From NCBI RefSeq assembly GCF_000760515.2, contig NW_013546245.1, positions 1 through 31,284 on the forward strand: a DNA stretch of 31,284 nucleotides, read 5' to 3'. This document shows positions 1 to 27,014 of the stretch, one piece after another. Source of the stretch: Mitosporidium daphniae (lineage: Eukaryota > Microsporidia). Made by a program: the position numbers and the translations under genes. Within the stretch, counting starts at the first letter, position 1. The number at the start of each line of letters is the position of its first letter. The notes beneath the pieces are model-generated. The model did not search any database. It had not been told where the DNA came from and saw only the letters and a program-made list of their open reading frames with translations.

Positions 1-1506
1 GCACAACTTTAAATATAGAGTGGATTTTTTGGTGTTTTTGCGAATTGGCAATATTTTCTCTAGCTGGGTTTGAGTTATGAGGGCAACACTTTTTACAATG
101 TTGAATGAGAATCCGATGGCCACTTTCTATGGATTCAGTGGAAGCCGAAGAGGGAAGAGTAGGTTTTGATGCATTTTTTGTGAATACGGAATATATTTGA
201 AAAAACCGGTTGCCATGTTGATTGTTGGATGCCATTCCTTCCCAACTGCTTCTTCGAAATCTGATTACTGGTTCCATACACATGGTGGTACCATTCGGTG
301 TAGTCCGAGTCGATGAGCAGGAAATGGTGGGCAATGGCTCCCTCCATACATCAGGTTCCAAAGCATCAAGCGGCCTTGCGGACACCTTAATTGAAGCTGA
401 CTGTGCTTTCTTGTCATCAAAATCGCAAATATTCTCAACTTGAGCTGGAAAGCTTATTGGGGACGTTGGAAATTCAAACTCAGATGGTGGTGTAACAATT
501 GGATTTTTGGCTTCCTCCGTATTTTTCGTCTCATTGACAGCATGGTGGCTATCAAAGTAAGGCAGATTTGCTTTATCAAGTTTTGGGTTCGAATAAATAG
601 GAATAGTTGTACAGTCTTTAGAAAAATCTTGAAGGAAGACTTTAGGTTTGGGATATAGGTTATTGAAGGAGGAGCGGGATGGCGAAGGTGACGAAGGAAG
701 TGAGATGGATTGAGACTTTTTCGGGGCATGCAGTTGAGAGCCCTGCCGTGGCTTTGTCGGGTTTTTTGTTCGTTTCTTGCAGGTATTGCCATTAAGTATC
801 GGGGAAATCAACATGGGAGAGGCTGAAGGGAGACAGGCCGGAGGCTTTGCCATATATATATTGCGATGATGGTCCTTCTTATCAGGCTTTTTATAGGAAG
901 AATTTTGAATGTAAATAGTGGGTTTGAAATTATCAAAGTTAAATTTAGATTGACAGCTAGAAACAAACCTGAAAGAAGAAGCTTCACAGAACGTTGGCCA
1001 TCTTTTAAAAACGAAACTCCGACATTGCAATACAAGATTAATTAGATGTTTGCATATTATTTTGAGGCAAGAAACCAAATGGCAGAAAACATAAATAAGC
1101 TTTACATACACTAGCTCGAGGGGCAAAATTCGCCAAATGATCGTCTTGACTGGCCTGGAAATGCCAGCAAAATAATTTAAATTCGGGTTAATTTTGGAGA
1201 AAGCCTAAAATAAACCGATGGCAAACTTACATAATCCGAAATGATAATAAATAGTATAGAAATTCCGATAAATATAGCAGGAGCTATGAACACAGATATC
1301 ACTGCATCGTTGAGTATCACCTCTGAGAACAACGGATTGATGGCAAGCAACTCAAAGAAAAGCACAAATGTACAGAAAAGTGTAAAAAAAACAGGGGTGC
1401 TGGCGCTTTGGTTAGAATGGTGTCTGCTGCTGTGAGAGTAGCCTTTGTTGGAAAGTGGAATCGTCGAGTGCGTTGGTACGATTGGCGGCATATTAAATCT
1501 CAACAT
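1..1506 (-). CDS. Orphan membrane-anchored protein with long disordered tail (3' end off window)
   Basis: Not recognised. The start is ATG at 1506 (a second in-frame ATG lies five codons on). Exon 1 (1506-1231, 92 codons) encodes a Ser/His-rich N-terminus followed by two hydrophobic stretches, at about residues 40-60 and 68-90, likely two membrane segments. It would stop at 1177-1179, but removing a 26-nt intron at 1230-1205 (GTAAGT donor, TTTTAG acceptor, phase 0) opens a frame that runs without a stop from 1204 to the window edge, about 400 codons. I checked that frame codon by codon. The tail starts with a short basic, partly hydrophobic stretch, then becomes rich in Ser, Pro, Lys and Asn with low predicted order. 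A frame of this length without stops in A+T-rich DNA is unlikely by chance, so the gene is probably real. Function is unknown. The alternative 3' site at 1155 gives an early stop and was discarded. Confidence 0.6.
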
Positions 1507-1646
1507 AAATAATTAGCCAAACGGTAATCTAAATAAATGAATAATTAAAATCACAAAGTTTATTTGCATTTGATTTTTACCCTGAAACGCAATCGTGTAC
1601 TTTAAACGCAATTTATTTCAGACAACAAGGAAATTGAAACGGCAAT

Positions 1647-2508
1647 TTATTGAAAAATATTCCTCAAATCTGCTTCTGAATAATAAATATCGGTAACGGG
1701 ACATTTCGCTTCCCGCCTCAAATATTGTAAGATGCATATATGGCAAAATACATATCCAGATGGAAGGGCCGTTGGGTTTGTACAGGGAGATTGTTTACAA
1801 AGCGCACATGTTCCTCTTAATGGAATTTCTACACCACGGTGTGGGGAAACAATGCATGGGGGCTCCTTTTCATCCAGGATAAAGTCAAACTGGCAGTTCT
1901 CTTCTAACATAACTTTGGCTTTTGCATGTCCATTTTCTCCCCACCACTGCCCAATTCTTATTAAAAATAATGCCACAGGAAATATAGACACCAAGCTTTC
2001 AAGTGAAAGTATTTTCATCGGCGATTGATCTGTAATTTCTCTTCTCCTCAAAGTGACATCATGCACATAGAGCCAAGGATAGTAAAACGCAGTCAATTTT
2101 ACCAAATAGGCCAAGGAAAAAGATACCTTTATGGCATCGAAAAAAGCAAGACCCAACATAAGGCCCTTTTGCCTTGTGTTGATGATTTTGGATCGCACAT
2201 AACTATAGGTAGGTCCCCACAGAACGCTTAGGACAATGGCCCTTTTATTTCCAGCTCTATGTATCTGGTAAAAATACTCTGAAAACGAAGCTTTATAATG
2301 CCTTGCAAAGTAAAGCTCGGTGAGGGAAGATAGAATCCACCAAATTCCTTTCGAATGGTGAGGAAATATGCCAAGTTTCTAAGGATAATCAATTTAGAGC
2401 TACTTCAAAGTACTGGCAGAATACGGGACCCATCAGCTCGGTCATTTTATCGCAAGCCAGGACTTCCAAGAAAGAAGGCGAACATTGCAGCAAATCATTC
2501 GAAGCCAT
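1647..2508 (-). CDS. PEX12: Peroxisome biogenesis factor 12 (peroxin-12, RING-type)
   Basis: PEX12 is a peroxisomal membrane RING protein that acts with PEX2 and PEX10 to ubiquitinate the import receptor PEX5. Two exons (2508-2404 and 2378-1647) are separated by a 25-nt phase-0 intron (2403-2379), giving 278 aa; animal and yeast forms are about 360-400. Exon 1 carries the start of the PEX2/10/12 N-terminal domain (PSFLEVL). After the join come ELYFARHY and SFSEYFY, matching the family's LDL-x-LQQHYL / SFSENFY region, then membrane segments. The C-terminus (residues 226-261) is the degenerate ring CALC...SGYVFCHIC...CPVT; GYVFC and the terminal CP-T are typical of PEX12, which keeps only part of the zinc ligand set. 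The start lies 20 nt from that of COX10 on the other strand. The weak point is exon 1, which rests on the splice join. Confidence 0.88.
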
Positions 2509-2528
2509 TTGGTAAAATTTTACTTTCA
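2509..2528. promoter_or_regulatory. 20-bp divergent intergenic spacer PEX12/COX10
   Basis: Only 20 bases separate the preferred ATG codons of PEX12 (2508, minus) and COX10 (2529, plus). Each transcript must therefore start inside the other gene's leader or coding sequence, or the true starts differ. The COX10 frame stays open upstream to an ATG at 2355, which would overlap PEX12 exon 1 in antisense. Confidence 0.4.
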
Positions 2529-3629
2529 ATGAATGTCCTTCAAATTAATAAATTGATCTTTGCCACTCATTCTCACCTCCCTTGTAATATTATTAAGTTC
2601 AATACGCCGCGTAAAGTCTTTTTTTCTCTAAATCCGCTTTCGAAGTATACATTGCAATCCTATTCAACAGAATCCAAATTGGCCAGTGGCAACCAGTCCA
2701 ATCCCGACTGTCTTTCTAGTTTGTCCCCCCTTACTGAACAGAGTCCATTAGCAAAGATAATTCCACAACTATTCAAAATCAAGCTCTCTGCTATGGTTTT
2801 ATGTACCACACTGACAGGCTTTGTCATTGTTCCTGGAATTGATCTCTACTGTTGGACTACGATAAAATTACTGGGCAACACTCTTCTTGGTACATCTTTA
2901 TGCTCATTTTCCGCAAACGCGTTCAACCAATGGATCGAAGCTTCATTTGACGCGCAGATGAAAAGAACAGAATTTAGACCTCTGCCTTTGCGGAGGATTT
3001 CTCTTCCAAATGCCTTCATCGCGAGTAGCATGATGGGATTGAGTGGCGTTGCCTACTTGTATTATTTTGTTTCCGGAGTGTCATCTATAATTGCAGCCTC
3101 GACTATTATCCTTTATGCTGGAGTATATACTCCTCTGAAAAGAATGTCCATTATGAATACCTGGGTTGGCTCCATTGTTGGGGCATTTCCGCCACTGATC
3201 GGTTGGTCAGCTGGCTTACAGTCCCTCTCTTTTGTAGCTCCAACGCCTTTATTTGGATGGATCCCCATTTTTTTTCTGTTATATTGTTGGCAGTTTCCTC
3301 ATTTTTTTTCACTCTCTTGGGGTTTGAGAAGAGAATATGCCCGTGCAGGATATCGTATGTGCTCTCTTCTTAATCCACGGTTAGCCACCGCTTCTTCCAT
3401 GAGGCATACGTTGGTCTTATTTCCACTAACCTTTCTTTTTTACTATACAGGCCTTGCTAACATGTATTTTATATTTATTGGCTCTCTCATCAATTGTATC
3501 TTATTACTCCCCGCAATAGACTTCAAAACTAAACAAGATAGCTTTAGTGCTAGGCGCCTGTTTTTTGCGTCTCTAATTCATCTGCCGTTGTTTATGGCCG
3601 CTTTATTTGTACTAAAACCAGCGCCCTAA
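2529..3629 (+). CDS. COX10: Protoheme IX farnesyltransferase, mitochondrial
   Basis: COX10 transfers a farnesyl group to heme b to make heme O, the first step to the heme A of cytochrome c oxidase, in the mitochondrial inner membrane. It is a single exon. From the ATG at 2529 it encodes 366 aa with a basic, hydroxylated N-terminus ending in a SYSTESK-like stretch, a good mitochondrial targeting signal. The UbiA-family prenyl-diphosphate motif N-x7-D-x4-RT-x2-RPL is intact (about residues 133-152). Further conserved blocks are YTPLKR, GAFPPLIGW and WQFPHFFSLSWGLRREYARAGY, with about eight hydrophobic segments overall. An upstream in-frame ATG at 2355 would give 424 aa, but its extra 58 residues overlap PEX12 exon 1 on the other strand, so I prefer 2529. 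It converges on COA8, another complex IV assembly factor, with a 52-nt gap. Confidence 0.95.
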   Translation: MNVLQINKLIFATHSHLPCNIIKFNTPRKVFFSLNPLSKYTLQSYSTESKLASGNQSNPDCLSSLSPLTEQSPLAKIIPQLFKIKLSAMVLCTTLTGFVIVPGIDLYCWTTIKLLGNTLLGTSLCSFSANAFNQWIEASFDAQMKRTEFRPLPLRRISLPNAFIASSMMGLSGVAYLYYFVSGVSSIIAASTIILYAGVYTPLKRMSIMNTWVGSIVGAFPPLIGWSAGLQSLSFVAPTPLFGWIPIFFLLYCWQFPHFFSLSWGLRREYARAGYRMCSLLNPRLATASSMRHTLVLFPLTFLFYYTGLANMYFIFIGSLINCILLLPAIDFKTKQDSFSARRLFFASLIHLPLFMAALFVLKPAP

Positions 3630-3681
3630 TAAACACAAATATTTAACACAAGCACCACCAACATATGCGTTGAGAAGACCT

Positions 3682-4057
3682 TCAGGGCCTCGTAAACCAA
3701 TATTTAGGGTTAAGATGGCAAATGAGTAAATTAATACTTCTAGCTCGCCATTCCTGATTGAAGGAATCAAATTCTTTTTGGTATATTGTGATGTAATTGG
3801 TGTAAAATTTGGACAACAAAGCTAAACGTAAGGCCGAAACAGTACCTGGATTTCCAATGCTAGCAATGTCTCTTTCTAGCGAATCAAATCGATCGTTGTT
3901 TTTTTTCCAAAACGAAGCCTGCCAGCTCCAAAGGTCGGACTCTTTTTCGGTAATAGTGCTATAGAGAGATTTTGACCTCGCCGCACTATGTATTTTCTGC
4001 AATCATAAAATATTAATTTACCCGACCACATGGCAATACTTTTCCAAGTAAAACCAT
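3682..4057 (-). CDS. COA8: Cytochrome c oxidase assembly factor 8 (APOPT1 family)
   Basis: COA8 is a matrix-side mitochondrial protein that supports complex IV assembly. Two exons (4057-4022, 3996-3682) flank a 25-nt phase-0 intron (4021-3997, TTGCAG acceptor), giving 116 aa against about 200 in mammals. The short basic N-terminus with Arg, Ser and hydrophobic residues suits a presequence. The core shows the family pattern: an FW-x-K-x-N block, then a Leu-rich helix, KFYTNYI, and FNQEWRARS, matching the family's FYKEFL...YNRDWYKRN pattern. The match comes from memory of the family and is moderately strong for so short a protein. The gene is tail to tail with COX10 and 77 nt from the divergent importin alpha start. 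Without the splice the frame has no ATG, which supports the intron. Confidence 0.72.
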
Positions 4058-4134
4058 CGGATGCTAAATAGAATTTTCGCACTTCACGCTTTAAATTGAA
4101 TTTAATTTGTTGTCAATTGCCAAAATTTAGTTAC
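4058..4134. promoter_or_regulatory. 77-bp divergent promoter region COA8 / importin alpha
   Basis: Short A+T-rich spacer between divergent starts at 4057 (minus) and 4135 (plus). It holds a TTTAATTTG element at 4101-4109, a variant of the TTTAATTTT element seen just before other starts in this window. Confidence 0.35.
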
Positions 4135-5865
4135 ATGAACAGAGACAAATTGGAGCAAAGGCGCCAAAGTTTTAAGGGAGCCGGCTTCACCAAGGAGGAG
4201 CATCGACGCCGACGAGAAGAGGCTTCTGTAGAAATCCGCAGAGTTAAACGGGAGGATACCCTTAGCAAAAGAAGAGGCCTTCAGCCTGCCGGGACCTGCG
4301 AGGCTGGTTCATCATCATCTGCTATTTTTGCTTCTTATTCTGATGAGGATGAGGACAAATCCCTTTTTTCTGCCAATTCACCAAAATCTTTAAAGGTAAA
4401 TTGATGGTATTATTTTTAGTATGAAGCTCCAACATCAAATTTGTTTTCGGATGACCCTGTTCTTCAGCACGCTGGCGCTGTTGAATTTAGGCGCATCCTC
4501 TCAAAGGAAAGGAATCCCCCGATTGATGATGTCATATCTTGTAACATCGTTCCCCGTTTGGTTCAGCTGTTAACAGCGCCACAGGGAAAATATCCCAACG
4601 AAACTAGCCCCGAGGAGGTATTTTTTGTTATTTATGACGTTGAAATAGGCAAAGGGCCTATTTCAGAGCATTCAATTTGAGTCCGCCTGGGCGATCACAA
4701 ATATTGCTTCAGGTAAATTCTTTTGTGGTTAATTTCACCTCTTTCTTTGCTAGGCACTTCATCACAAACTTGGACCTGTGTGCAGCACAATGCCATTCCC
4801 GTCTTTATCCAGCTCTTACAGACAACAGATTCCAAAGATGTTTTGGAGCAGTCTGTCTGGGCTTTGGGAAATATTGCAGGAGATACAACGGAAACAAGGA
4901 ATATGGCCTTGAATTCCGGGATAATGGGCCCTCTGTTGAGTGTCATTCAAAATGCCTTGAATTCCCCTTCTTTGCTAAGAAACGCCGTTTGGACGCTTTC
5001 CAACTTGTGCAGAGGAAAGCCTGCGCCGCCCTGGGGCTCCGTAGTCGACTGCATTCCCGTTTTGGCTGGACTTTTGAGAAGCATCCAAAGCGACAATGAG
5101 GTTATCGCCGACTCCCTATGGTCCCTTTCTTACCTTTCCGATGGTCCTAACAACCACATTGATGTCGTTCTGCAATCAGGCATAATTCCACGTGTTGTAG
5201 AGCTGCTAGCATCGCCGAACTCTACTCCTGCAATTCAGACCCCTGCCCTCCGTACTCTGGGAAATATAGTCACTGGAAATGATATTCAGACGCAAGCCGT
5301 TCTGCAAGCTAATATCCTGCCAGCGCTTGTTTCATTGCTACGCTCCAATCCAAAGGCATCCCTTATAAAAGAGACTTGCTGGACTATCTCCAACATTACT
5401 GCAGGCAACCCAGACCAAATCCAGGCTGTTATATATTCTGGAATCGTCCCTCTTGTCATTGATATTCTTGAAAATGGGGAATTTAAAGCCCGAAAAGAAG
5501 CTTGCTGGGCAATTTCAAATGCTACCTCTTCAAAGTCTACGCGCCCAGATCAAGTTCGATATCTGGTCACTGAAAATTGCATTCCTCCTCTTTGCGATAT
5601 CCTTTCATGCCAAGACAGCAAGATCCTTCAGGTGGCCCTCGAGGCTCTTGATGCTATTCTTGAAGTGGGGGAGCGAGACTTTCTTGCCTCTGGCGGGTCG
5701 ATTGGAGATTGCCAGCCTTATGCTCTTCAAGTGGAAGAGTCTGGAGGCCTTGATCGTATATACGAACTACAGGGACATGAAAATGTCCATATTTACGAAA
5801 AGGCAAAATCGATACTGGAAAAGTATTTTTCTGAGGGGGAGGATACTCTCCTTGGAGGAAGCTAG
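4135..5865 (+). CDS. SRP1: Importin subunit alpha (karyopherin alpha)
   Basis: Importin alpha binds classical nuclear localisation signals in the cytosol and links them to importin beta. Four exons: 4135-4395, 4420-4617, 4667-4712 and 4754-5865, total 538 aa, the usual length. The N-terminus is an importin-beta-binding domain, with RRQSFK, then RRRREE and an acidic Ser-rich linker (residues 1 to about 80). About ten armadillo repeats follow; the NLS-groove Trp/Asn pairs are visible as W-x3-N in WAITN, WALGN, WTLSN, WTISN and WAISN. Introns are 24, 49 and 41 nt. The second could instead end at 4648 (31 nt), adding six residues before SIQFESAW; the shorter protein aligns better with the family as I remember it. 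MOG1, another nuclear transport factor, lies 1.7 kb away. Confidence 0.95.
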
Positions 5866-6052
5866 TTATTTCGCATACGTAATCCAATTATAAAGAATAT
5901 TAACGGGTACATCCGTGGACTACTGAAAATTAAAATTGTGGATATGTTTGAACGGGCTGGGTCGGAGGTAAAGAAAACAGGCTGACCGGATCCCGTTGTG
6001 TGGTTCGATGTATCTGAATACTGTTTATTGACAGACCAAATAATATATAAAT

Positions 6053-6604
<552 letters not shown>

Positions 6605-6669
6605 TATACGGACAAGTAAAATTAAATCTTTAAAAATTCGAACTTTACACGATATTTTTAATATTCAAA

Positions 6670-7510
6670 TTAGATCATCGAAATTGGATACGATTGATCA
6701 AATAGATACCAAATTCCCAATTGCAAAAGCCAGCGACATGCATGTGCAAAGGCGATTGATATGCATACTTTAAGTCTTGCCTGTCTAATTCTGGAATGGT
6801 AGGTTGCATGGCCACTGCTTGTCATTGCATATATGGCTTCAATGTTTGAAAAGATGACAAACACATTGACTAGCTTTATCACACCCATTGAATAGTAGTT
6901 CCATATGACCATGAGAATGACGATTATTTTACCAAAACTGCTAATGATCAGCGCTTCTCTGATTTTGTCGCTCGAAATTCGGGAGCCTTCTTTTGAAAAA
7001 ATCGTCAAAAGCAGCGTGATAACGATGGAATATACCAAAAACTCGAAAAATGCGCACAAAAAAAGAAATGGGACGTTTTTTACAAATAGATAAGTGTACG
7101 AAAAACTTGAAGATAAGGGTGGCCGTGGCAACGGATGGTTTGTCTCCTGTTGGTACCATTTAATATCTACACACATGAGGCAATAAAAGATACAAATTTC
7201 AATCAAAAACATCAAGGTGGCAAGCCGCAGTAAAATGTTTTTCGTGTAAAATGCCTTGTTTGCAGTGACGTGACATTGGCTTTTATTTAGAAGCAAATGT
7301 CTATACACTTGGTGCTTGTGCAAAAGCATATCTAGAAAAAGAATGATCGGCTCATATTCGATATATTTATCCGAAACCGATCCGCAAAATGTCTACGGGT
7401 AAAATAAAGCAGCATTGGGATACACATTGGCACAGGGAAATATTTCCGTGCGAATATTCTAAAAATAAGCTTTGGACTTGGGAGCCACATTCGACACATG
7501 AAAATGGCAT
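6670..7510 (-). CDS. ARV1: ARV1 family lipid homeostasis / GPI-intermediate protein
   Basis: ARV1 is an ER membrane protein involved in sterol and ceramide distribution and in early GPI-anchor synthesis. Exon 1 (7510-7424) and exon 2 (7392-6670) join over a 31-nt phase-0 intron (7423-7393), giving 269 aa. The ARV1 homology domain is complete: CVECG at residues 5-9, an EYSHGNI block, C29-x2-C32G from the join of the two exons, then DKYIEYE, ILFLDMLLHK and VYRHLLLN, all diagnostic. Several hydrophobic segments follow, including two near residues 52-73 and 104-130 and one near 150-165. The zinc-binding second CxxC pair is split by the intron, so the intact motif itself supports the join. The start is 35 nt from the preferred start of the divergent MOG1 gene. 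Confidence 0.92.
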
Positions 7511-7545
7511 GGGCCAATTTATCAGGAAATTTAAAATTTATTCTC

Positions 7546-8148: not shown

Positions 8149-8295
8149 CCCTAACGCAAAATAAAGTTCGGACTCCCGTCCCAAATAAAATACCAAGAAT
8201 TTTGTTTCAGCCAATCTTGACGCGTGTCACTTTTCAATTTATTTTGAGCCTTCGATACCATCCTCAAATTGAATCTCTTGTGCCTTTTTTAGGGA

Positions 8296-10412
8296 ATGTC
8301 CCTAAAAGCCTTCTATTTGGAGCGTAAACTTGTTTTATTCTACAATATTTAGATATTGAAAAGACTTTGTTTCCATCGCCCACCGATGGTTGCAATTCAT
8401 GGAGGATTTTGGTGGCAGATAAGTTGGCCACGAATTTCCTAAACTCAATGTTCCGCCTGTCCAATCTGGTCGAAAAAAGGATATCTTGTACGAAAAATAA
8501 ATTCCCATAAGTTTGTTAGTGATAGAGAAGCTTGAGTTGAAACGAAGGTCCTTCCCCCAAATGGCGGCAATCTACTTGCTTTCTAATTTATCCAGCTCGA
8601 TCGAAAAGCTCTGCTCAGATATCAGCGATGGCCAATATGGGACATATTACATATACATACTATCCAAACTTGAAGACAAAGAGGTGCAGAAATTGGCAGC
8701 CGCTGTAAAGACGAACGGTTCCTCCATTAAGGTATTTATGGAAAATCTTTGTAGTATAAAATTCATGGGGACCAATGGCTTCTACTTACAGGACTTTGAC
8801 AAGGAGATTTTGGGCAAGATATATGCTCAACTCTATCCCGATAAGCTTTTAGAGCACGTGGGAGAGCAGCTCGCCGCTGTCGTAAAGGAATTCTTTCCGT
8901 AAGCACCTCTGCTTACTGCTAGGAAATTGTCCAAAAAAAACCGTCCCCAAATTCGATATAAAACCTCGCCCTATAGGAGGGCCGAAATTGTCGCAAGGTC
9001 ATGCTTTGCATCTTTGAACAAAGAAAAATTGGCACCAGAGTCGCCTACAAGCTCCTCATGTAGCCTGAAATACATCTTGATTGTCGATCGGTCATTCGAC
9101 CTTATCTCGCCGCTGCTGCATGAATTTACTTATGAAGCAATGTTACGGGAGATTGAATCTTCTTGTGATTCCGAATATTGTAGTGAAATCAAGAAAGAGC
9201 TACACTTGCTTGATAATACAAATCTCAAGGAGGAGCAATTGGGATTTTGGTCTCTGCTCCGGGATGTCCACCTTGCAGATTGTGTATCAACGCTTCTAAA
9301 ATATTCCGAATCATTTGTCGCTTCGAATTCTGCAGCAGGATTTTCCAAGGAAACAACTAAAGATCCATCAAAGCTGGTATCAATTAGCCAAATGAAGGCA
9401 ACAATAGCTTCAATTCCCGAATTGCAAGAATTTAAAAAATACGTAAGGTTCTCGATACAAATTGACGCCTGTAGTTTTCGATCCATCTTCAGCTGCTGCA
9501 ATACTGCATTGATACCTTCAATCGGAAAAACCTTGATGCCGTGGCAACGGCAGAACAAAACCTTGCTTGTGAGTATTTTACGAGCGAATCTAAGCCTGCT
9601 GAGGATCCTTTGAATGCAATTAGTTCTTTGCTGGCCGACAAGGATATTTCGGCAGAGAACAAGGCCAGATTGCTGATACTGTATCTTGCAATTGTTCCAG
9701 AAATGTCCCAGCTCTCAAAGTCAGAGTTGATGACTCTTTGTAAATATTCGGATATTTCCGACGTTTGCTCAATTAATGGGTTTTATTCGGCCTTTAATGT
9801 TCGAACGTCTCAGGGACCTGAAAGATTGTCAATGGTACTTCCAAACATCAAAAAAAAGCATAAAATCAAGCTCGGATCTTTGTTCAAGGGCACATTTTTT
9901 TCCAAGGGCGGTGGTAGCACAGAAAAGTTTGATACCGAAAATAAGGCTACTTATGAGCTATCCAGATTTGTGCACCCAATTGAGGCATTGTGCAAGGTAT
10001 GGGTCCATGTTTTCAGCATCATTTCTAGTCGACTTTAAGAGGCATTTTTGATAAGGCACGAGATGTTCTCGTTGAATCTGCTCTGATGGAAGAGACCAGT
10101 CAAAGTCTCGTCACCACGCCCGGTGCTGCAAACATGGCATCCGGAAAAAATGTATATGCGACATCTAACTCTGTTCGGCACAGACAAGAGTGGAAAAACG
10201 CTGCCATAGCTGTTGATTCATCAATAGAAGCGGGACAGGCTGCATTTGAGCCAAAGGCCTTAATATTTATTGTTGGCGGGATGACCAGCTCCGAGGTCAG
10301 GGTTTCTTTTGAAAGAAGCAAAGGCCATATTTTACTTGGATCCGATTTCTTTATCACGCCAACAGACTTTTTGGCATCTTTGGCAGAAAGTGGCAAGCTA
10401 TGCAAGGGATAA
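8296..10412 (+). CDS. SEC1: Sec1/Munc18-family SNARE regulator
   Basis: SM proteins clasp syntaxin/SNARE bundles and promote vesicle fusion. Six exons: 8296-8323, 8353-8487, 8520-8898, 8923-9442, 9475-9996 and 10029-10412, giving 655 aa. Introns are 29, 32, 24, 32 and 32 nt; every join restores family sequence. Landmarks in order: N-terminal WRILVADK, MAAIYLLS, the central KYILIVDRSFDLISPLLHEFTYEAM (domain 2 signature), ELQEFKKY joined to FSIHLQLLQYC, and near the end ALIFIVGGMTSSEVR...ILLGSDFFITP. The C-terminal pattern resembles exocytic Sec1/STXBP more than Sly1, Vps45 or Vps33, but paralogue assignment by eye is uncertain. The stop codon sits in the first unit of a 10-bp tandem repeat. 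The gene faces SLA2 tail to tail. Confidence 0.87.
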
Positions 10413-10447
10413 GCAAAGATAAGCAAAGATAAGCAAAGATAAGCAAA
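10408..10447. repeat. Tandem repeat, four 10-bp units GATAAGCAAA
   Basis: Four perfect head-to-tail copies of GATAAGCAAA at 10408, 10418, 10428 and 10438. The SEC1 TAA stop (10410-10412) lies within the first copy; the other copies fall in its 3' untranslated region, between the convergent SEC1 and SLA2 genes. Unit count is likely variable between strains. Confidence 0.95.
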
Positions 10448-19683: not shown

Positions 19684-22620
19684 ATGAAAACGGACGCCAA
19701 AAGGGCTCGGCTCTTGGCCCAGTATACACACAAGAAGCTTCTGAAGGAGGAGAAACAAACTCTTCTAGAGGGTCTGGCAAATGAACACAAAAAAAGAAAG
19801 GAACTTTTGGCAAAGTACGAGCTGCAAAAGAAAAACATTTCTTCCAGCTCTGTTTCTTCAAAACGTGCAGTTAGAGAGGCTCTTTACACTAAAGCCATCG
19901 AGGAGACACATATTGAAGACAATAGGCAAAATTGTTTCAAACAAGAATTAATATCTCACTCTTCTTTGGAGGTAGAGCGTGTTTCATCCTCTGGCGAAGA
20001 TGATTGGGACGGATTTCTTGATCCTCCAAAAGAGATAGTAGAAAAAAACATCCACGATCCGCAAGATTTTACCGCGGGTAGCGCTCCTCTGACAGGGGCA
20101 TCCCTTTTTAGGATCTTTAATCGTTTGCCTAAGGTTGAGGAGGACCGTTCAAGTTTGCCAATTTTGTCAGAAGAACAGTCGATTGTGGAGATGATTAGAT
20201 ACAATGACATCTCTTTTATTTGCGGAGAGACCGGCTCAGGAAAAACAACTCAGCTTCCACAGTTTTTATTGGAGTCCGGATTTGCTGACCCATCTTCTTC
20301 TCTTTTTCCTGGAAAGATCATTGTGACACAGCCACGTAGGGTGGCTGCAATGTCAATGGCAGCTAGAGTAGCTCATGAGCTTAATGAAGAAGGTATCGTG
20401 GGCTATCAAGTCCGCTACGACAGCACTCAAAACACAGAGGCAACACGGGTGATTTTCATGACTGATGGCATTCTGCTTCGTATCATCGCAAACGATTTCC
20501 TACTCTCTGCTTATTCGGTGATTATCCTTGATGAGGCGCATGAAAGGAGCGTAAATACAGATCTATTGCTTGGTCTGCTGACAAGGATCGTCGCCCTGAG
20601 AAGAAAAAAATTTGACCAAGTACAGGGCTCCCAGGGTACTCCTTTGAAGCTTGTCATCATGAGTGCAACGCTTCAGATGGAAGAGCCGGAGCTTGAGAAC
20701 GAAAAAAAAGTAGCAGACTTGGTTCAACAGACTCCTTCGATGTCTTTATCTCCTCAATCTACTCTTTTCCGTGGATTAGCTCGACCACCGCCGTTTATTG
20801 ATATTCCCTCACGCCAGTTTCCCATCCATATCCATTATTCGAAAAAAACACCGACGGATATGCTATCCGAAGCATATAGGAAAGTTCTTCAAATCCATAA
20901 GAAGCTGCCTGCAGGCGGTATTCTTGTCTTCGTTACAGGCCAGGATGAGGTATGGTCGCTCATAGACCGATTGCGTGGTAACAAAACTCGGAAAGGTGAT
21001 CGCCCCACTGTTCTTCCAGAAACTATCAATGACCCTCTTTCTATGGATGACCGGGATGATCGTTCCGCAGAGCCCGAATACCACTCCATTGTTGATGCGA
21101 ATAATACAGAGAACAATGACCGTCATGGCAACGAGTCTGAGGATATTAGTGAAGACGAGGAGCTTCATCCAAGGATGTTACCACCAATGCGTGTGCTACC
21201 ATTCTATTCCTTGCTACCGTATGCAGAGCAGGAAAAAGTGCTTACCGCCTCTTGCTCCCTGAATGATTCTGAGCGCCTTGTAATTGTCGCTACCAATCTT
21301 GCGGAGACATCTCTCACCATTCCTGGAGTTTCTTATGTTGTTGACACAGGGCGAGTCAAGCGGCGCACATTTGATGGAAATGGCGTAGAAAGCTATTCGA
21401 CGTCTTGGATTTCCAAGGCGAGCGCAAGACAACGAGCTGGTCGGGCTGGAAGAACCGGTCCAGGACACGTTTACCGACTCTATTCTAGCTCTCTTTTCGA
21501 GGACCTTTTTGATGACTTTGACACTCCAGAGATCCTTCGTATGCCAGCAGAGAGTACTTTAGTTTTCTAACGCATCGTAGATATGGTGTTGCAAATGAAA
21601 GCTATGAACATTGATAATGTGGCCCACTTTCCCTTCCCCACTGCGCCAGATCCTGTCAAATTGGAGCAAGGGGAGCGACTTTTGCTGCTGCTTGGTGCGC
21701 TCTCGACGCCTACAGCGGTGGTTACTGAGATTGGTCGAGGGATGGCACTCTTTCCGGTGCCTGTACGTCTATCAAGAATGTAAGTAATCTTGGCTCATTT
21801 CTGTAGGATTGTCGGTGCCGTTCAGCTGGGAAACTCTTTGCTGCTAAGAAGCGTCTTAGACTTGGCCTCGATTCTTTCCGTGGAAAGTCCTTTTATTGCT
21901 GGAAAATCCCGCGAGGTCCTGGCCTCATGTGAAGACGTACTAGCTATGGCCAGACCATTTTCGGACTTGTTTTTGTATTTACATCTTTTTCAAGGCTTTT
22001 CAAAGCTATCATCCCGAAACGAGCAGCGTTCATTTGTCACCCGGTGCCACCTCAATGAAAAGGTTTGTCTTCTTGACTTTTTCTAGTGTCTCAAAGAGGC
22101 TCTCAGGTTAAGATCTCAGCTGGGAACAATAATTTCTCGCTCTTTTGTCAAGGCAGATGCCCTTGAGCCGACAAGCGAACCAATTTGCCCCAAAGATGTC
22201 AACTCCATTTGGTCCCAGCTGATTTCTTTGTTTCTCTTGGCACATCCGGACTGCATTGCAAAGCGGGTCTCTTCCCCGGGCAAAATGCCCGTTTTTTTGC
22301 CTGTAGGCCTGGCAACATGCTCTACAATTAGACTGACCTCTCCCATTTCTACATGGATCTCATTTATCACAATGCCAAACGAAAAAAACGAAGCTCAAAT
22401 TTGCAAGGCCAAGCCAGATACATCGTCGATATTTTCTACAGCTTCTTTTCGGAATAAGAAGCTCGGTGGGTGGTTCGTTTATGGACGGATCAGGCAGCAT
22501 CTTGATACAGATAGGATGGGCGTAGGGAAGATCTCCTTATCCATACTTTCTGAAATACCGGATCCGACCTTACTTCCCGAGCATCTGCTGAAGCTATTTT
22601 CGTCAAATAAATTAACTTAA
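19684..22620 (+). CDS. ECM16: DEAH-box RNA helicase DHX37/Dhr1 (18S rRNA processing)
   Basis: Dhr1/DHX37 releases U3 snoRNA from pre-18S rRNA during small-subunit processome maturation. Four exons: 19684-21553, 21581-21779, 21807-22062 and 22087-22620, giving 952 aa. The introns are 27, 27 and 24 nt, and the first carries a TCTAAC branch-site match. Helicase motifs: GETGSGKT (181-188), TQPRRVAA, DEAH (283-286), SAT, TNLAETSLTIPG, TGRVKRR and QRAGRAGRTGPG. After the first join come VLQMKAMNID, FPFPT and the winged-helix/ratchet region, then an OB-fold tail ending near SILSEIPDP. The basic N-terminus (KRARLLAQYTHKK) and the acidic insertion before the second RecA domain are typical of Dhr1 among DEAH helicases, separating it from Prp2/16/22/43. 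An upstream open stretch to 19648 lacks an ATG. Confidence 0.92.
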
Positions 22621-22674
22621 TTGCCTGCTATCTTTTGAATCTAAATCTGCGGCAAATATGTGCTGTCCGGATAG

Positions 22675-22899
22675 CTAATATTCCCTGTGTGTTGTGGTCT
22701 CATTTGCAATCGCAGCGGCAATGTTAACGTACAAAATAGAGTCAAACGAAACACATATCGATGGACATTTTAATATAATTTGCATGCTCATGGGGCTAAG
22801 GCGATTTCCGATTATTGTAGGCCATATTTCCGGCCGTTGCAAACGAATATACGCTGTCAGGATATCCGGAAAAGGTGTTTTTGGACATGCCTTGCTCAT
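22675..22899 (-). CDS. Possible small unidentified protein (74 aa)
   Basis: Not recognised. An ATG-started frame of 74 codons fills the gap between DHX37 (stop 22620) and the V-ATPase f gene (stop 22942), leaving 54 and 42 nt at its sides, in keeping with local gene spacing. The N-terminal half is Pro-rich with aromatic residues; the C-terminal half is moderately hydrophobic. Opposite-strand frames of similar length overlap it (22694-22924 without an ATG at its beginning, and 22780-23028), so the strand is not settled. Confidence 0.22.
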   Translation of the reverse strand: MSKACPKTPFPDILTAYIRLQRPEIWPTIIGNRLSPMSMQIILKCPSICVSFDSILYVNIAAAIANETTTHREY

Positions 22900-22941
22900 T
22901 TGGGGACATCAAAAGAGATCCTGAGATGGAGCCCGGCTTTT

Positions 22942-23232
22942 CTAGGGGTTAGCTGTGCGATTCAAACTTTTTTTTGCAGATTGAGAGATGGGCGTTATTC
23001 TGGCATTCAAATAGTATTGCCAATATGAGAATGAAAACAAAACCAAGAAAATTAGCGCGCTGAGAAAGCAGTTGAGAGCGGCCGTGTCGGCTTCGCTGAG
23101 CGGCCTTGAGTGGAAAAACTGGGGATCTCGTGACTGATAGCACAGACCAAGAGCGGTGAGAAAGACTACACCAAAGGCCGAATATATACACACAATTACG
23201 GATAATACTCTGGAAATAAAGGGCCTTACCAT
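22942..23232 (-). CDS. V-ATPase subunit f (RNASEK / YPR170W-B family)
   Basis: This is a small two-helix membrane subunit of the V-ATPase Vo sector (RNASEK in animals), part of the proton pump that acidifies vacuoles and endosomes. The ATG at 23232 gives 96 aa; the yeast subunit is about 85. The pattern fits closely: MVRPF at the start, then SAFGVVFLTALGL in the first helix, a short polar lumenal loop, and a second helix with ALIFLVLFSFSYWQYYLNAR ahead of a basic tail. Yeast has RPVVS...SAFGVVILSV...ALVYLVFFVFCGFQVYLARR. A GT...CCAG pair just after the start could be read as a 20-nt intron, but splicing it gives a stop codon, so I treat the gene as intronless. Confidence 0.72.
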   Translation of the reverse strand: MVRPFISRVLSVIVCIYSAFGVVFLTALGLCYQSRDPQFFHSRPLSEADTAALNCFLSALIFLVLFSFSYWQYYLNARITPISQSAKKSLNRTANP

Positions 23233-23328
23233 AAACAAGGGGCCTATCTTGACAAAAAATTTATATTTTAGTTTAATTCGGTTCCCATTGGCTGGCCCGT
23301 AACTTGATAAAAGTGGGCAATAAATAAA

Positions 23329-24117
23329 TTAAAAGAGCCCCCTGATAAATAGTCTAAATCGGTCATATAGTCCCGCCAACGTTGGCTCTGGCCTTACATC
23401 CAGATAAATGGAAGGCACGCGTATCTCTTTTCCCTCGACAAGAGATAGCTTTTTTTGGCCCTCGTAAAAGTCAATGATGTATCTGATGGGCTTTTCAGAG
23501 CATCCGCATCTGTCAACGAACCAGTCGTGTCGATCAAATGGAGGTGCGTAGCCTAGTAATTTCCAAAGCCGTGCCTTGATTGTCAGCTCTTCTGGCTTGC
23601 CGCAAAAACTGGAAAGTGAGGGTTCTTTGCAATCGTGAAGCCTTTCGTATTTTAAAACATGCTGCCAGGCCTGTTCGTTGACAATGTTGTGCATGTGTAC
23701 AATGGCAAAAAGTGTCGATTTGTCCAACGAATTAACATCTTCAACCTTCAACTGACTTGAAATGCCATCTGTTTCTTTTTTTGCCATTGTTTTTCTTAAC
23801 ATTGCCGCTTTGAACATTTCTATCGATGGGTACAGCCAAGTTCCATCTGTTCCGGTGCGTTTTATAGAAGAAGATATTCGCATAGAGGTAGGTGAATTTC
23901 CAGAGTTTTCCTCCGATGTTCCGAGACACAGGGAGTGTGAAGAACATCCACTGGTGGCGGGACAGCTGCCAACCTCACCAATATAAGGGCAGGACAATCC
24001 GGGTTGTTCGCCAGATGTTGGCTTTACGGGACATTCTGAAGAATCCATATAATTTGAACTTGGATTCCCGAACTTTGTGCAATTGTGGGAACACTCTGAA
24101 GCTTGAGCTACACTCAT
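23329..24117 (-). CDS. CYC3: Holocytochrome c-type synthase (cytochrome c heme lyase)
   Basis: HCCS attaches heme covalently to the CXXCH motif of apocytochrome c (and, in some fungi, c1) in the mitochondrial intermembrane space. Single exon; ATG 24117 gives 262 aa, near the family's 260-290. The N-terminal part has three Cys-Pro dipeptides (CPV, CPY, CPA) typical of heme lyases. The core shows WLYPSIEMFKAAMLRK, the conserved heme-binding His in MHNIVNEQAW, then FCGKP, ARLWKLLGY, PFDRHDWFVDRCG, RYIIDFYEG and LDVRPEPT, all diagnostic. The frame is open upstream to 24192, without an earlier ATG, and would run to within 20 nt of the CBS stop; 24117 leaves 56 nt. Whether it also serves cytochrome c1 cannot be told from sequence. 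With COX10 and COA8 it shows the respiratory chain is kept. Confidence 0.95.
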   Translation of the reverse strand: MSVAQASECSHNCTKFGNPSSNYMDSSECPVKPTSGEQPGLSCPYIGEVGSCPATSGCSSHSLCLGTSEENSGNSPTSMRISSSIKRTGTDGTWLYPSIEMFKAAMLRKTMAKKETDGISSQLKVEDVNSLDKSTLFAIVHMHNIVNEQAWQHVLKYERLHDCKEPSLSSFCGKPEELTIKARLWKLLGYAPPFDRHDWFVDRCGCSEKPIRYIIDFYEGQKKLSLVEGKEIRVPSIYLDVRPEPTLAGLYDRFRLFIRGLF

Positions 24118-24173
24118 CGTGAAAAAGAAAAACCAACAAGGACCAGGTGTGGGGTTTTGAATTTTATTTAAGG

Positions 24174-25844
24174 TTACAGGTTTAAATAACACTTCATTAA
24201 AGTTTTTTGCGCGAGGGTTCCTACCAGCGTATTCTCATCCCTGGATGAGGTCACAATTAAAAACGGTGCGTTACTCTTGATCAGCATTTGGATTGCCATT
24301 TGGATGGAAGTTTTTCCAGAAACCAAAAGGTCTTGGCTTATTGGCTTGAGCGGAGCCTCTAGCCCCTGGGCCAAGCATTGAAACGCGTCCTGGAATGAAA
24401 TGAGCCCTAAAACGCTGTTTTTCACAACCATGTTTGTGAAGAGGGGAATTTCTTTTACTACTAGCAGTACTTGTGGCGCATTTTCATGTTTGAAAAATTG
24501 GCGAAAACATGTGTTAATTGATGTCTACGGTAAATAACATTTGCAGCTCGTACCAGACTATCTTTCTCAACATACGAAAATGGCTCAGGAATATTGGATT
24601 CTTCCAAAGAGCTGTTCATGCTTACTTGGATGGGATTTATAAATTGATGGTATGCCATCCAGTCATCCTTTATGAACTTTGACATATAGTTTCTGACCGA
24701 ATCTGGGAGAATGATTAGAATGGTCTGCTTCGATGAAAGGTTCTTTCCAACCACCATGGCAACATGTGCAGCAGAGCCACTGCTCCCTCCACATAATAAC
24801 CCTTCCTCTCTTATCAGCCTTCTTGCCATGGTAAATGAGTCTTTATCATCGACACTAACCCATTCATCGATCGAGGAATAATCCAAAGTATTTGGGATGA
24901 AATCGTATCCAATGCCTTCAATTGATGCATGTTAAGATAATACCTTCTACGAGATACATGCTTTTAGAAACTTTGGTGTGGCCTTTTTTCTTGAGTGCCA
25001 AAGAAGACCCGAAAGGATCAACAGCAATGATCTAAAAAGGAGGTTACCATAGCTCGAGCAACTACCTTGACATGAGGGGCCGCCTTTTTGATTGCCCTAC
25101 CTACCCCGGATACTGTACCGCCCGTTCCTGCTCCAATGATCACGACATCGATATCTGCTCCGTTGTTTGTTGCCTGTAAGATTTCGGTTGCTGTAGTTAT
25201 TTCGTGAGTTAAAGGGTTATTTATATTGCTGTACTGGTCAAGTATTACTGAATCTGGTACTTCTTTCTGCAGTTTTTTTGCCAGGCCTAATGGATAAGTC
25301 AATGTGTGTCTTAACTGATGTGACTACTAGGATGATCAAATGGAACATTGGTGGGGGTTCTTCTCACGTCAGCTCCCATTGCTTTTAAAATGTTGATCTA
25401 GGAAAAGTCATATTGGCGGCACGAATGCATACCTTTTCCATACTCATCTTTTCAGGAATGGTAATGATCACCTTATAGCCCCTTACCGCTCCAATCAAAG
25501 CTAACCCAATTCCTATGATGTTCAGAAAAATACAATATTTTAACCTGTGTTTCCTGACGTGGGCTCAATAATGGTGGACTTTCCAGGTATCAGGATCCCT
25601 CTTTTCTCTGCATCTTCAACCATTGCATAAGCTATCCTATCCTTAACAGACCCCCCTGGATTGAAGAACTCGCATTTTGCGACTATAGCGATCAGATATT
25701 TGAGTATTTACCGATGCGACAGGCCAGTCCCTCTTTTTTGGGAATATTATTTAGCTGAACAATCGGAGTATTTCCAATTGTCTTGAGGATATCAGGGTAA
25801 ACGCCCCTATTTGCTAGAAAGCTTTTTTGTTGCGTTATGGTCAT
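24174..25844 (-). CDS. CYS4: Cystathionine beta-synthase
   Basis: CBS condenses serine and homocysteine to cystathionine in a PLP-dependent reaction, entering transsulfuration. Eight exons: 25844-25712, 25682-25545, 25512-25433, 25397-25316, 25286-25066, 25031-24944, 24915-24554 and 24524-24174, giving 484 aa (yeast 507). Introns are 29, 32, 35, 29, 34, 28 and 29 nt. Visible: TIGNTP, the PLP lysine in GGSVKDR (K58), PTSGNTG (84-91), SSHISLAKKL (made by the fourth join), VILDQY, GAGTGG (196-201), EGIGYDFIP (sixth join), [11 protein letters not shown] and [10 protein letters not shown]. As in yeast there is no N-terminal heme-binding extension. The C-terminal roughly 115 residues form a divergent Bateman (CBS-domain) pair. 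Introns 2 and 4 have GTTAA donors. The seventh join was chosen because it gives an open, sensible CBS-domain frame; it is the least certain. Confidence 0.93.
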
Positions 25845-26094
25845 TAAAAATGGAATCAGTTGCGATTAATTTATTTCCTCGTTTAAGCTTTCCTTGAATG
25901 GCGACTGCACGAACGAATAAAAATTTATTAAACCTGATTGGGCCCGCTAGCTTACACATTGCGTCCCTAATTGAAAATTCTATTTAGGGTTAGGGGCCCT
26001 ACGCCACGCTTTAATCTATGCTTCAGCCAATGAGTTGTTGGCCAAAAGGCATCCCAATAAAACCCATCTCCAACCGCAATTAAACAACACAGAT
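25845..26094. other. Region upstream of CBS with TTAGGG-like pair
   Basis: This stretch carries the CBS promoter (minus strand) and, if real, the promoter of the small plus-strand frame at 26095. TTAGGGTTAGGGG at 25984-25996 is two telomere-type units. A minus-strand frame of about 63 codons (26158-25967) overlaps it without a motif or an ATG start. Nothing else is identified. Confidence 0.4.
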
Positions 26095-26289
26095 ATGATG
26101 GCAAGACAAAACACATGCTATACATTTGGATTTTCCCGCATGATCGACGTACACGCAATCGAAATCACATTGCCAGAAATACAAACCGAGCGCGATAAAA
26201 GAGATGTCGATTTTTTCTTGGTCTCTGAGGACGGTATTTTGCAAATTGAATTTGATCTCTTTAGCTCCTTGACCTTATTGATACTGTAA
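26095..26289 (+). CDS. Possible small unidentified protein (64 aa)
   Basis: Not recognised. The ATG at 26095 starts 64 codons; the same frame is open upstream to about 25978 without an ATG. The C-terminal part is acidic and hydrophobic (residues about 17-58, with alternating Ile, Glu, Asp and Leu) and looks protein-like. The end lies 24 nt from the convergent ADA1 stop, in keeping with local spacing. A competing minus-strand reading over the same bases is also open for about 60 codons, so this stays a weak call. Confidence 0.22.
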   Translation: MMARQNTCYTFGFSRMIDVHAIEITLPEIQTERDKRDVDFFLVSEDGILQIEFDLFSSLTLLIL

Positions 26290-26313
26290 CCTGACGGTAA
26301 ACGTTGGTTTTCA

Positions 26314-27014
26314 TTACAAGGCGAATGCCCAATAATTTGAATGGCCTTGAGGATACATTTTGATGAGAACGACTAGCATTATCAAAGTGCACACGAATAC
26401 CTCAATTGCTCCTTTGACATCTGCAAGAACTTGGTCTGATATCAAGGATGGGTCTAGTCCATGTAATGGAGCGACCTCTGTAAAATAATCAAAAATATCC
26501 ACAAGTGAGGGAAGGTATCCCGTTGAGGTCCGGCCATGTGTGACAGGTGCGTGAAGCATCTTCTCAGGATACAATGGATCCAACAAGGAAAGGGAGTAAC
26601 TCGGCTCAAGAGCCTCTAAAAGGTAATTTTGAGAAATGTCAATATTAAAACAGGGATTAGTCGGTATTGAGCAAGATGACAGAATCAGAGGAATTGACCA
26701 AGTTGCTTTGGATGCAATAAAGCTAGCATTTCCATGGTCATCCGAAAGAGCGTCTTCGTCTTCTTGTTGCGATTGGTACCTTCTAAATAGAAGAGTGGTA
26801 ATCAATTTGTTATGTTCGCCAACTAAATAATAAATAGCACATAAATACTATTTTCAAGGCCCAGACACTCTTTGACGATTTCAAAAAGCTCCGCTTGGGA
26901 AAGCAGTCCTTCGAGATACTGTAAAATCGAGATCCAGTATTTTTGCGGACGCAATGACCGCTCGGCGATGATGAAGTCAATACGGGTCTTTTGCAATTCC
27001 AAGGCCGAGCTCAT
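26314..27014 (-). CDS. HFI1: SAGA complex subunit ADA1/HFI1 (TADA1-like)
   Basis: ADA1/HFI1 is a histone-fold-containing structural subunit of the SAGA coactivator. Two exons (27014-26849, 26822-26314) join over a 26-nt phase-1 intron (26848-26823), giving 224 aa. The N-terminal block fits the family: a helix, then KYWISILQYLEGLLSQAELFEIVKECL, and after the join ENIGEHNKLITTLLFRR, compared with the family's QYW...L..WF..KISKEEFD...HN.FLLAIL. The middle is low complexity. The C-terminal part (about residues 165-215) holds helices ending in a hydrophobic stretch, a plausible but divergent remainder of the histone-fold region. It is shorter than yeast HFI1 (488 aa) and human TADA1 (335 aa). The call depends on the N-terminal block. 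It is divergent from NST1 with an 82-nt spacer. Confidence 0.6.

Follow-up and report, generated by a model that had tools for sequence, protein, structure and literature searches.

The 31,284-nucleotide (nt) stretch analysed here (the window) is the entire contig NW_013546245.1 of the Mitosporidium daphniae assembly, which comprises 4.66 Mb in 147 contigs (the window being C96). Pfam matches and homology indicate a eukaryotic gene content: PEX12-like (below cut-off), COX10-like (UbiA), COA8-like, importin-alpha, uS11, ARV1, Mog1, a Sec1/Munc18-family protein, Sla2/Hip1R, a weak EME1/MUS81 match, DHX37/Dhr1, a V-ATPase f-like subunit, cytochrome c heme lyase, CBS, an Ada1-like gene (just below cut-off) and an NST1-like gene. 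Across eleven rebuilt genes, including the terminal open reading frame (ORF) A, we predicted 34 GT–AG introns, nearly all of them ultra-short.

Gene models were first obtained with a dynamic-programming gene finder and boundaries were then set by hand from reading frame and homology. The resulting list is hand-curated because ab initio runs with wide length limits produced long false introns. GT and AG were fixed beforehand in this search, with decoy dinucleotides serving as the control. Lengths range from 24 to 67 nt with a median of 29 nt, and 30 of the 34 introns measure 24–32 nt (24 nt, four; 25, three; 26, four; 27, three; 28, two; 29, five; 31, four; 32, five), followed by single introns of 34, 35, 41 and 67 nt. 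A first-pass annotation of the same DNA had proposed 33 introns between positions 1205 and 26848, with 28 at 24–32 nt, extremes of 24 and 67 nt and a median of 29 nt; extremes, median and outermost introns (1205–1230 and 26823–26848) were all recovered. A 19-nt intron proposed by the finder at 261–279 in ORF-A was excluded from the count; this ORF extends past the contig end, and its first exon matches nothing in Pfam.

Because 27 of the 34 lengths are not multiples of three and six of the seven remaining introns carry an in-frame stop, 33 cannot be read through. The sole exception, at 12896–12919 in Sla2, would add residues that are absent from all six aligned relatives. Phases 0, 1 and 2 are represented by 18, 13 and 3 introns, and 32 of the 34 end in TAG.

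Comparison with homologous proteins revealed family sequence rejoined at 21 of the 34 junctions and weakly so at seven, while six lack homology support. The earlier statement that each join recovers family sequence thus stands for the majority, is weak for seven and fails for six. Importin-alpha and Sla2 junctions were checked against six aligned relatives each, of 120 and 77 listed matches, respectively. Ungapped junctions were obtained for six of seven introns in CBS, two of three in Dhr1, two of five in the Munc18-type gene (with one further junction lying within its Sec1 Pfam match), one of two in uS11 and two of three in importin-alpha. Splicing also raised Pfam scores, to 142 bits for ANTH (49 and 43 for the separate pieces) and to 159 bits for uS11 (127 unspliced). 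For importin-alpha intron 2, two relatives (P0003 and P0004) favour 31 nt over a 49-nt alternative, the stretch being absent from the other four. Two ANTH junctions in Sla2 are offset by one residue relative to the relatives, one of them because of a tandem acceptor; this TTAG/CAG acceptor, at 12686–12713, gives an intron of 25 or 28 nt. The Sec1/Munc18-family gene had been read as Sly1-like, a reading we rejected since it is nearer to Munc18 by alignment. Removal of the predicted GT–AG introns restores conserved protein sequence, and at the level of sequence the intron observation of the first-pass annotation is confirmed.

Table 1. Predicted introns of the window. A slash marks the exon junction in the protein; 'none' denotes placement by frame and splice signals only.
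Gene and intron	Position	Strand	Length (nt)	Homology support	Junction
ORF-A	1205..1230	-	26	none
PEX12-like	2379..2403	-	25	none	sub-cut-off Pex2_Pex12 match stops short of junction
COA8-like	3997..4021	-	25	none	outside COA8 match (33.8 bits)
importin-alpha 1	4396..4419	+	24	weak	in-frame stop; within Pfam IBB, weak conservation
importin-alpha 2	4618..4648	+	31	rejoined	EE/AKGLFQSIQFESAW gap-free against P0003 and P0004 (2/6 relatives)
importin-alpha 3	4713..4753	+	41	rejoined	NIAS/GTSSQT ungapped against 6/6 aligned relatives
uS11 2	6121..6149	-	29	rejoined	GRI/EDVTP ungapped against solved uS11
uS11 1 (longest)	6529..6595	-	67	none	frame shift and splice signals; precedes aligned part
ARV1	7393..7423	-	31	rejoined	CQC/TFCG restores CxxC; spanned by 149-bit Arv1 Pfam match
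Sec1/Munc18-family 1	8324..8352	+	29	none	frame, stop and splice signals
Sec1/Munc18-family 2	8488..8519	+	32	rejoined	EKRIS/LIEKL ungapped against Munc18
Sec1/Munc18-family 3	8899..8922	+	24	weak	in-frame stop; gap near junction against Munc18
Sec1/Munc18-family 4	9443..9474	+	32	rejoined	KKY/FSIHL ungapped against Munc18
Sec1/Munc18-family 5	9997..10028	+	32	rejoined	within single 235-bit Sec1 Pfam match of spliced protein
Sla2/Hip1R 8	11796..11827	-	32	weak	frame shift and stop; weak alignment
Sla2/Hip1R 7	12008..12038	-	31	weak	frame shift and stop; weak alignment
Sla2/Hip1R 6	12221..12251	-	31	weak	frame shift; weak alignment
Sla2/Hip1R 5	12304..12330	-	27	rejoined	in-frame stop; YQQQ/QIESLE agrees with relatives
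Sla2/Hip1R 4	12520..12545	-	26	rejoined	within ANTH
Sla2/Hip1R 3	12686..12710	-	25 (or 28)	rejoined	within ANTH; 6/6 relatives one residue shorter
Sla2/Hip1R 2	12896..12919	-	24	rejoined	NH/SYGVI ungapped against 6/6 aligned relatives
Sla2/Hip1R 1	13059..13084	-	26	rejoined	in-frame stop; /GYLSLIQPY in ANTH, gap few residues upstream
DHX37/Dhr1 1	21554..21580	+	27	rejoined	EILRMPAE/NMVLQMK ungapped against solved Dhr1
DHX37/Dhr1 2	21780..21806	+	27	rejoined	RLSR/MIVG ungapped against Dhr1
DHX37/Dhr1 3	22063..22086	+	24	weak	in-frame stop; spanned by 3-bit Dhr1 match only
CBS 7	24525..24553	-	29	weak	frame shift; weak alignment
CBS 6	24916..24943	-	28	rejoined	YLVE/GIGYDF ungapped against 5ohx and 4pcu
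CBS 5	25032..25065	-	34	rejoined	HVK/IIAVDP ungapped against solved CBS
CBS 4	25287..25315	-	29	rejoined	SSHI/SLAKKL ungapped against solved CBS
CBS 3	25398..25432	-	35	rejoined	MSMEK/INILKA ungapped against solved CBS
CBS 2	25513..25544	-	32	rejoined	SGNT/GIGLAL ungapped against solved CBS
CBS 1	25683..25711	-	29	rejoined	ungapped against solved CBS
ORF-B (Ada1/SAGA-Tad1-like) 2	26373..26400	-	28	none	frame shift and signals
ORF-B (Ada1/SAGA-Tad1-like) 1	26823..26848	-	26	rejoined	within 29.7-bit SAGA-Tad1 match (cut-off 31)

The same intron class extends beyond the window. The length tabulation suggested in the first-pass annotation was run on a non-random sample of 36 sequences without overlap, which total 276,963 bases or 6% of the assembly. 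It is made up of the window, the initial 10 kb of contigs 1–10, portions of four contigs that carry Ras matches and loci from the gene searches. Overlapping or duplicate sequences (L002–L005, L007, L033, L037, L041 and L042) were dropped, as were the later loci L045–L051, and gene models scoring below 12 were excluded from the counts. Under a flat 15–100 nt prior the finder called 205 introns in 118 genes (174 kb coding), again with a median of 29 nt: 150 at 24–35 nt, eight shorter than 24 nt, 18 at 36–50 nt and 29 longer than 50 nt. The length peak is sharp, with a lower edge near 23–24 nt. When no splice-site matrix was applied and only the terminal dinucleotides were scanned, GT/AG placed 66 of 144 introns at 24–35 nt, against 12, 18, 21, 23, 25, 28 and 31 (of 106–144) for seven decoy pairs; with core splice signals only, 181 of 307 introns fell at 24–35 nt and 78 exceeded 50 nt. 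A narrow genome-wide class under ~35 nt, the hallmark of Paramecium-type introns, is therefore present in the 277 kb sample.

Individual genes agree with this distribution. Four small-GTPase genes outside the window, which we take to be of Rab, Rheb, Cdc42 and Rho type, contain nine introns, all at 24–35 nt (Rab 27, 24, 35 and 34; Rheb 24 and 27; Cdc42 31 and 24; Rho 29 nt), and each rebuilt protein gives a single near-full-length Ras match (216, 131, 163 and 151 bits, respectively). They represent four of eight loci; L002 is an intronless GTPase gene, L006 has no model on the matched strand, and the models of L007 and L008 looked faulty and were excluded. The gene for the splicing factor U2AF35 is itself interrupted by a 27-nt intron at KDK/VNC, a junction that is ungapped against Schizosaccharomyces pombe U2AF23.

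Splice signals were examined in the 174 of 205 introns measuring 22–45 nt. Donors carry A at +3 in 76% and G at +5 in 47%, and 155 of 174 acceptors are TAG. Introns of 3n length number 42, three of them without a stop, stopless 3n introns being hardly visible to the finder. The CTAAC/CTAAT branch sites read in the first pass did not survive comparison with shuffled sequence, occurring at chance level (8 of 174 against 7.9; 2 of the 34 curated introns against 1.5). In contrast, a loose YTNAY motif is present in 121 of 174 introns against 84.2 ± 5.6 in shuffles (maximum 102 in 200 shuffles), its A lying 5–11 nt before the intron end at 100 of 155 sites. Because the acceptor matrix reaches back eight bases, the test was repeated with core signals only, giving 140 of 214 against 98.6 ± 7.4; outside the window the count is 107 of 150 against 72.9 ± 5.4. 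Ahead of the 3' splice site, loose YTNAY thus appears to constitute a branch-site element. Eight consecutive pyrimidines occur in 19 of 174 introns and 6 of the 34 curated ones, counts that carry no shuffled control.

Much of the core machinery that would act on these signals was recovered. U1 small nuclear RNA (snRNA; RF00003, 83.6 bits, with ACUUACCUG) has a canonical 5' end, and U2 snRNA (RF00004, 137.2 bits, with GUGUAGUAUCUGUUC) keeps the GUAGUA branch-recognition region. Targeted searches yielded SF3B1, Slu7, Prp18 in three copies and U2AF35, the last 62% identical to S. pombe U2AF23 over residues 1–205 (274 bits). By sequence, U1, U2, the HEAT part of SF3B1, U2AF35, Slu7 and Prp18 look ordinary. 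For SF1, searches of the assembly gave no match with PF16275, a KHDC4-like gene and one sub-cut-off match with PF22675, and a 19.6-bit match to the zinc-knuckle part alone with yeast Msl5; for U2AF65, TIGR01642 gave 30 matches across the assembly, none above cut-off. Thirteen of the 30 lie in genes that were read, including RBM39-like and PUF60-like genes and others that we take, from their resemblance, to be CSTF2-, nucleolin-, PABP- and eIF3g-like and a protein with two RNA recognition motifs. Two candidates were ruled out: the C78 gene as U2AF65, being RBM39-like (TIGR01622, 285 bits, over cut-off), and the KH gene on C56 as SF1, being KHDC4-like. The C-terminal part of the RBM39-like protein aligns with the end of the U2AF65 model and corresponds to a U2AF homology motif (UHM), and the PUF60-like protein matches the NCBIfam half-pint model best (153 bits, cut-off 444) and, as modelled here, ends before a UHM. 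A G-patch search for SPF45 found six places; neither of the two read is SPF45, the genes presumably encoding an FHA and G-patch protein and an RBM5-like protein.

SF3B1 itself differs in the motifs that UHM proteins bind, the UHM ligand motifs (ULMs). Among the best 120 listed SF3B1 proteins, the number of RW[DE] motifs ahead of KNGTPPMR is one in M. daphniae and its two nearest relatives and 3–7 in the other 117 (three in 1 protein, four in 55, five in 50, six in 10 and seven in 1). A conserved RWE helix, probably not a ULM, is among the motifs counted. A single-ULM SF3B1 has precedent because S. cerevisiae Hsh155 has one, compared with two in Dictyostelium and at least five in human, as given in PMC6633205. 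The RWE(RK)E(IL)D stretch and the IRTPARK motif are also altered in M. daphniae and the two nearest relatives. In addition, SF3B1 (L038) carries an insertion of ~20 residues between HEAT repeats, just upstream of the conserved KVRT stretch, which is partly common to the 76%-identical relative and absent from the other four aligned proteins.

Taken together, we consider it very probable that the introns are genuine U2-type spliceosomal introns, shrunk genome-wide to a narrow class of ~24–35 nt. For their recognition we propose the following. GTA-type donors would be paired by U1, the UAG at the 3' end would be read by U2AF35, and the weak branch A would be engaged directly by U2/SF3B1, with scant space in such introns for an SF1 footprint or a U2AF65 site of 8–9 pyrimidines. 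The single RWD (ULM-like) motif of SF3B1 could be served by a UHM protein, for example an RBM39-like factor; our best guess is that it would carry the UHM on SF3B1 by the logic of SPF45 on human short introns. With U1 and U2AF35 marking both ends of an intron barely longer than their two footprints, the intron would be defined almost as a single unit by U1, U2 and U2AF35.

Several observations weigh against this interpretation or parts of it. Within the 34 curated introns taken separately, YTNAY enrichment is weak (23 against 17.9 ± 2.8 in shuffles). YANTY, the same motif reversed, is also mildly elevated (88 of 150 against 72.8 ± 5.8), its near and further sites numbering 61 and 54, compared with 90 and 49 for YTNAY. 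Motif discovery by expectation-maximization (EM) on the 174 introns returned T-T/G-A-T/C at width 5 and an unrelated pattern at width 6; on the 34 curated introns, width 5 stayed within shuffles and widths 6 and 7 barely exceeded the best of eight. Finder recall in the window was 12–24 of 34 at a 200-nt limit, depending on penalty, with long false introns, and window calls not on the curated list were mostly long. The absence of SF1 and U2AF65 derives from family and protein searches without a eukaryotic control genome, in an assembly whose completeness is not established, and of the 30 U2AF65-family matches only 13 lie in genes that were read; positive controls are limited to other splicing proteins of the same genome because the search controls are prokaryotes. 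The roles of RBM39 and KHDC4 are those we assume for them. S. cerevisiae has introns of ordinary size although its SF3B1 has one ULM, so the loss of ULMs and the shrinking of introns need not go together.

The adapted spliceosome implied by the first-pass annotation has indirect support. The inspection of U2, SF3B1, U2AF and SF1 that the annotation called for found U2, SF3B1 and U2AF35 present and SF1 and U2AF65 undetected; with a single SF3B1 RW[DE] and a PUF60-like protein without UHM, these are indirect indications of adaptation, set against the ordinary-looking components. A true loss of SF1 and U2AF65 with U2AF35 retained, 3' sites being read by U2AF35 (UAG) and U2/SF3B1 alone, is a tentative proposal that we hold to be rather less than evenly probable; the SF3B1 ULM array would then have collapsed to one, PUF60 would lack a recognizable UHM, and the UHM–ULM hand-over would no longer be needed or would be served by RBM39. 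Somewhat better placed, though still short of an even chance, is the alternative that the introns are real and ultra-short and the machinery is ordinary, SF1 and U2AF65 being divergent or lying in assembly gaps, in a fission-yeast-like system without a pyrimidine tract. Conservation of U1, U2, U2AF35, Slu7, Prp18 and the SF3B1 HEAT part favours it, as do the uncertain completeness of the assembly and a review placing more than 30% of S. pombe introns without a recognizable tract. It is opposed by three SF1 queries (PF16275, PF22675 and Msl5) and one U2AF65 family without an orthologue, when queries of the same type found four splicing proteins and turned up RBM39-, PUF60- and KHDC4-like genes in passing, and by the one RW[DE] motif left in SF3B1.

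Explanations that dispense with ultra-short introns fare far worse. That the introns are ordinary, longer fungal ones, with short ones picked by fitting, could draw on the calls longer than 100 nt (45 at a 200-nt limit and 70 of 254 at 300 nt); we nevertheless regard it as highly improbable, since several long window calls proved to be two short introns or fused neighbouring genes, many short boundaries are fixed by homology, and the 24–35 nt bin remains nearly constant (150, 148 and 139) at limits of 100, 200 and 300 nt. Frameshifting assembly or sequencing errors, or pseudogenes, might be expected in a draft assembly with some duplicated segments, yet 30 of 34 gaps fall within a 9-nt size range, 32 end in TAG, decoys lack such a peak and the same class interrupts core genes on several contigs; because the boundaries are so regular, this reading is largely excluded and its probability is extremely low. 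Translational bypassing or frameshifting in place of splicing is practically negligible: nothing was found in its favour, ribosomal skipping of short gaps being possible in principle, and it is contradicted by the GT...TAG ends, the snRNAs and splicing proteins and the use of all three phases.

The phylogenetic setting is fungal as far as the matches reveal it. Among the matches listed, named importin-alpha, SF3B1 and Sla2 hits are mostly fungi, including chytrids and mucoromycetes; the top-ranking non-fungal records are from a sandfly (importin, P0005) and a tree-shrew (SF3B1, P0125), with oomycetes lower. P0005, labelled Lutzomyia longipalpis, outranks named fungi for importin-alpha and is possibly a contaminant. 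The closest relatives among the matches listed are 94, 88 and 61% identical for importin and 76 and 52% for SF3B1. An SF3B1 tree fails to place the organism because the branch that holds M. daphniae and two relatives is very long; their composition also deviates. The listed importin of the 94%-identical relative (361 amino acids) begins about ten residues past intron 3, a start that would fit the presence of this intron in the relative as well. The 61%-identical P0003 (578 amino acids) is continuous across the sites of introns 2 and 3; if splicing was ignored in its prediction, near relatives differ by gain or loss of these introns. Searches for relatives' DNA found none in viral contigs and, in genome contigs, six pattern matches without a relative.

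Other features of the window and assembly include the close packing of the first ten window genes, roughly 20–190 bases apart (start codons placed by hand). By comparison, 13500–18200 is a 4.7-kb stretch with few genes, one N base and a single long ORF at 15363–16781 (~472 amino acids) lacking a Pfam match. A short tandem repeat with a 10-base unit (GATAAGCAAA type) lies at 10405–10450, exactly where the Sec1/Munc18-family gene has its stop codon. The Prp18 locus exists in three near-identical copies (L040/L041/L042, on C56, C80 and C118; 0–1 mismatches per 3339 bases), and C53 and C99 share an equal-scoring G-patch match with a 511-amino-acid frame; both sets are either recent duplications or redundant contigs.

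Ultra-short introns have been published for ciliates, mikrocytids (rhizarian parasites) and nucleomorphs, with shorter cases in Stentor (15–16 nt), mikrocytids (16–17 nt), Bigelowiella (18 nt) and Trichomonas (23 nt at the shortest). The description of the M. daphniae introns as near the lower limit must therefore be softened, because 15–17 nt introns of Stentor and mikrocytids show that 24–35 nt is not the floor, though the introns are about half as long as the averages of 56 nt (PMC11913375) and 63 bp (PMC8476143) reported for Cryptococcus neoformans. That species is likewise fungal and intron-rich with short introns, and has the highest share of introns under 60 nt among the fungi studied in PMC11913375. 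The introns of Paramecium (and Nyctotherus), with a mode of ~25 bp (PMC5014332), similarly form a narrow unimodal class of nearly equal size. Paramecium is a ciliate, whereas these introns belong to a fungus-related lineage; as to the rare or stop-rich 3n introns of the Paramecium type, six of the seven 3n introns in the window carry an in-frame stop, a small number subject to detection bias. Stentor coeruleus shares a weak branch consensus, a branch A near the 3' end and a conserved U2 recognition site, but its introns are half as long and nearly fixed in length, and it has U2AF2 and U2AF1 matches (PMC9505925) where only U2AF35 was detected in M. daphniae. Mikrocytid introns are also many and all ultra-short, yet their sequence is conserved and their length almost constant, unlike those of M. 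daphniae, which vary in both, and only 17–19 spliceosomal proteins were identified there (PMC10245619). M. daphniae further differs in having kept cytochrome-oxidase assembly genes. Human U2AF65 recognizes a tract of eight or nine pyrimidines and is a poor binder of short introns, on which the UHM protein SPF45 takes over on SF3B1 (PMC8363638); with no SPF45 recognized in M. daphniae (two of six G-patch places read), the RBM39-like protein is the UHM candidate. Judged by titles and abstract openings, none of the papers listed in searches on introns, tiny or ultra-short ones included, in fungi, Rozellomycota, Paramicrosporidium, Mitosporidium and microsporidia describes a fungus with a ~29-nt median, and the word 'intron' appears nowhere in the main text of PMC5701793, which gives genome sizes for Mitosporidium and Paramicrosporidium. 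An earlier published case from the closest kin of microsporidia may nonetheless exist.

Many introns of 24–35 nt with loose signals and a largely familiar spliceosome would offer a fungus-related case closer to tractable yeasts, in which nature itself probes the least that splicing requires of an intron. Transferring such introns into fission yeast could show how closely the 5' splice site, the branch point and the AG can be spaced and whether SF1 and U2AF65 are needed. Gene callers typically require introns of several tens of bases, and one with such a minimum would break many genes of the M. daphniae lineage. The 361-amino-acid importin of its relative looks like an exon-bounded fragment of this kind in public protein sets.

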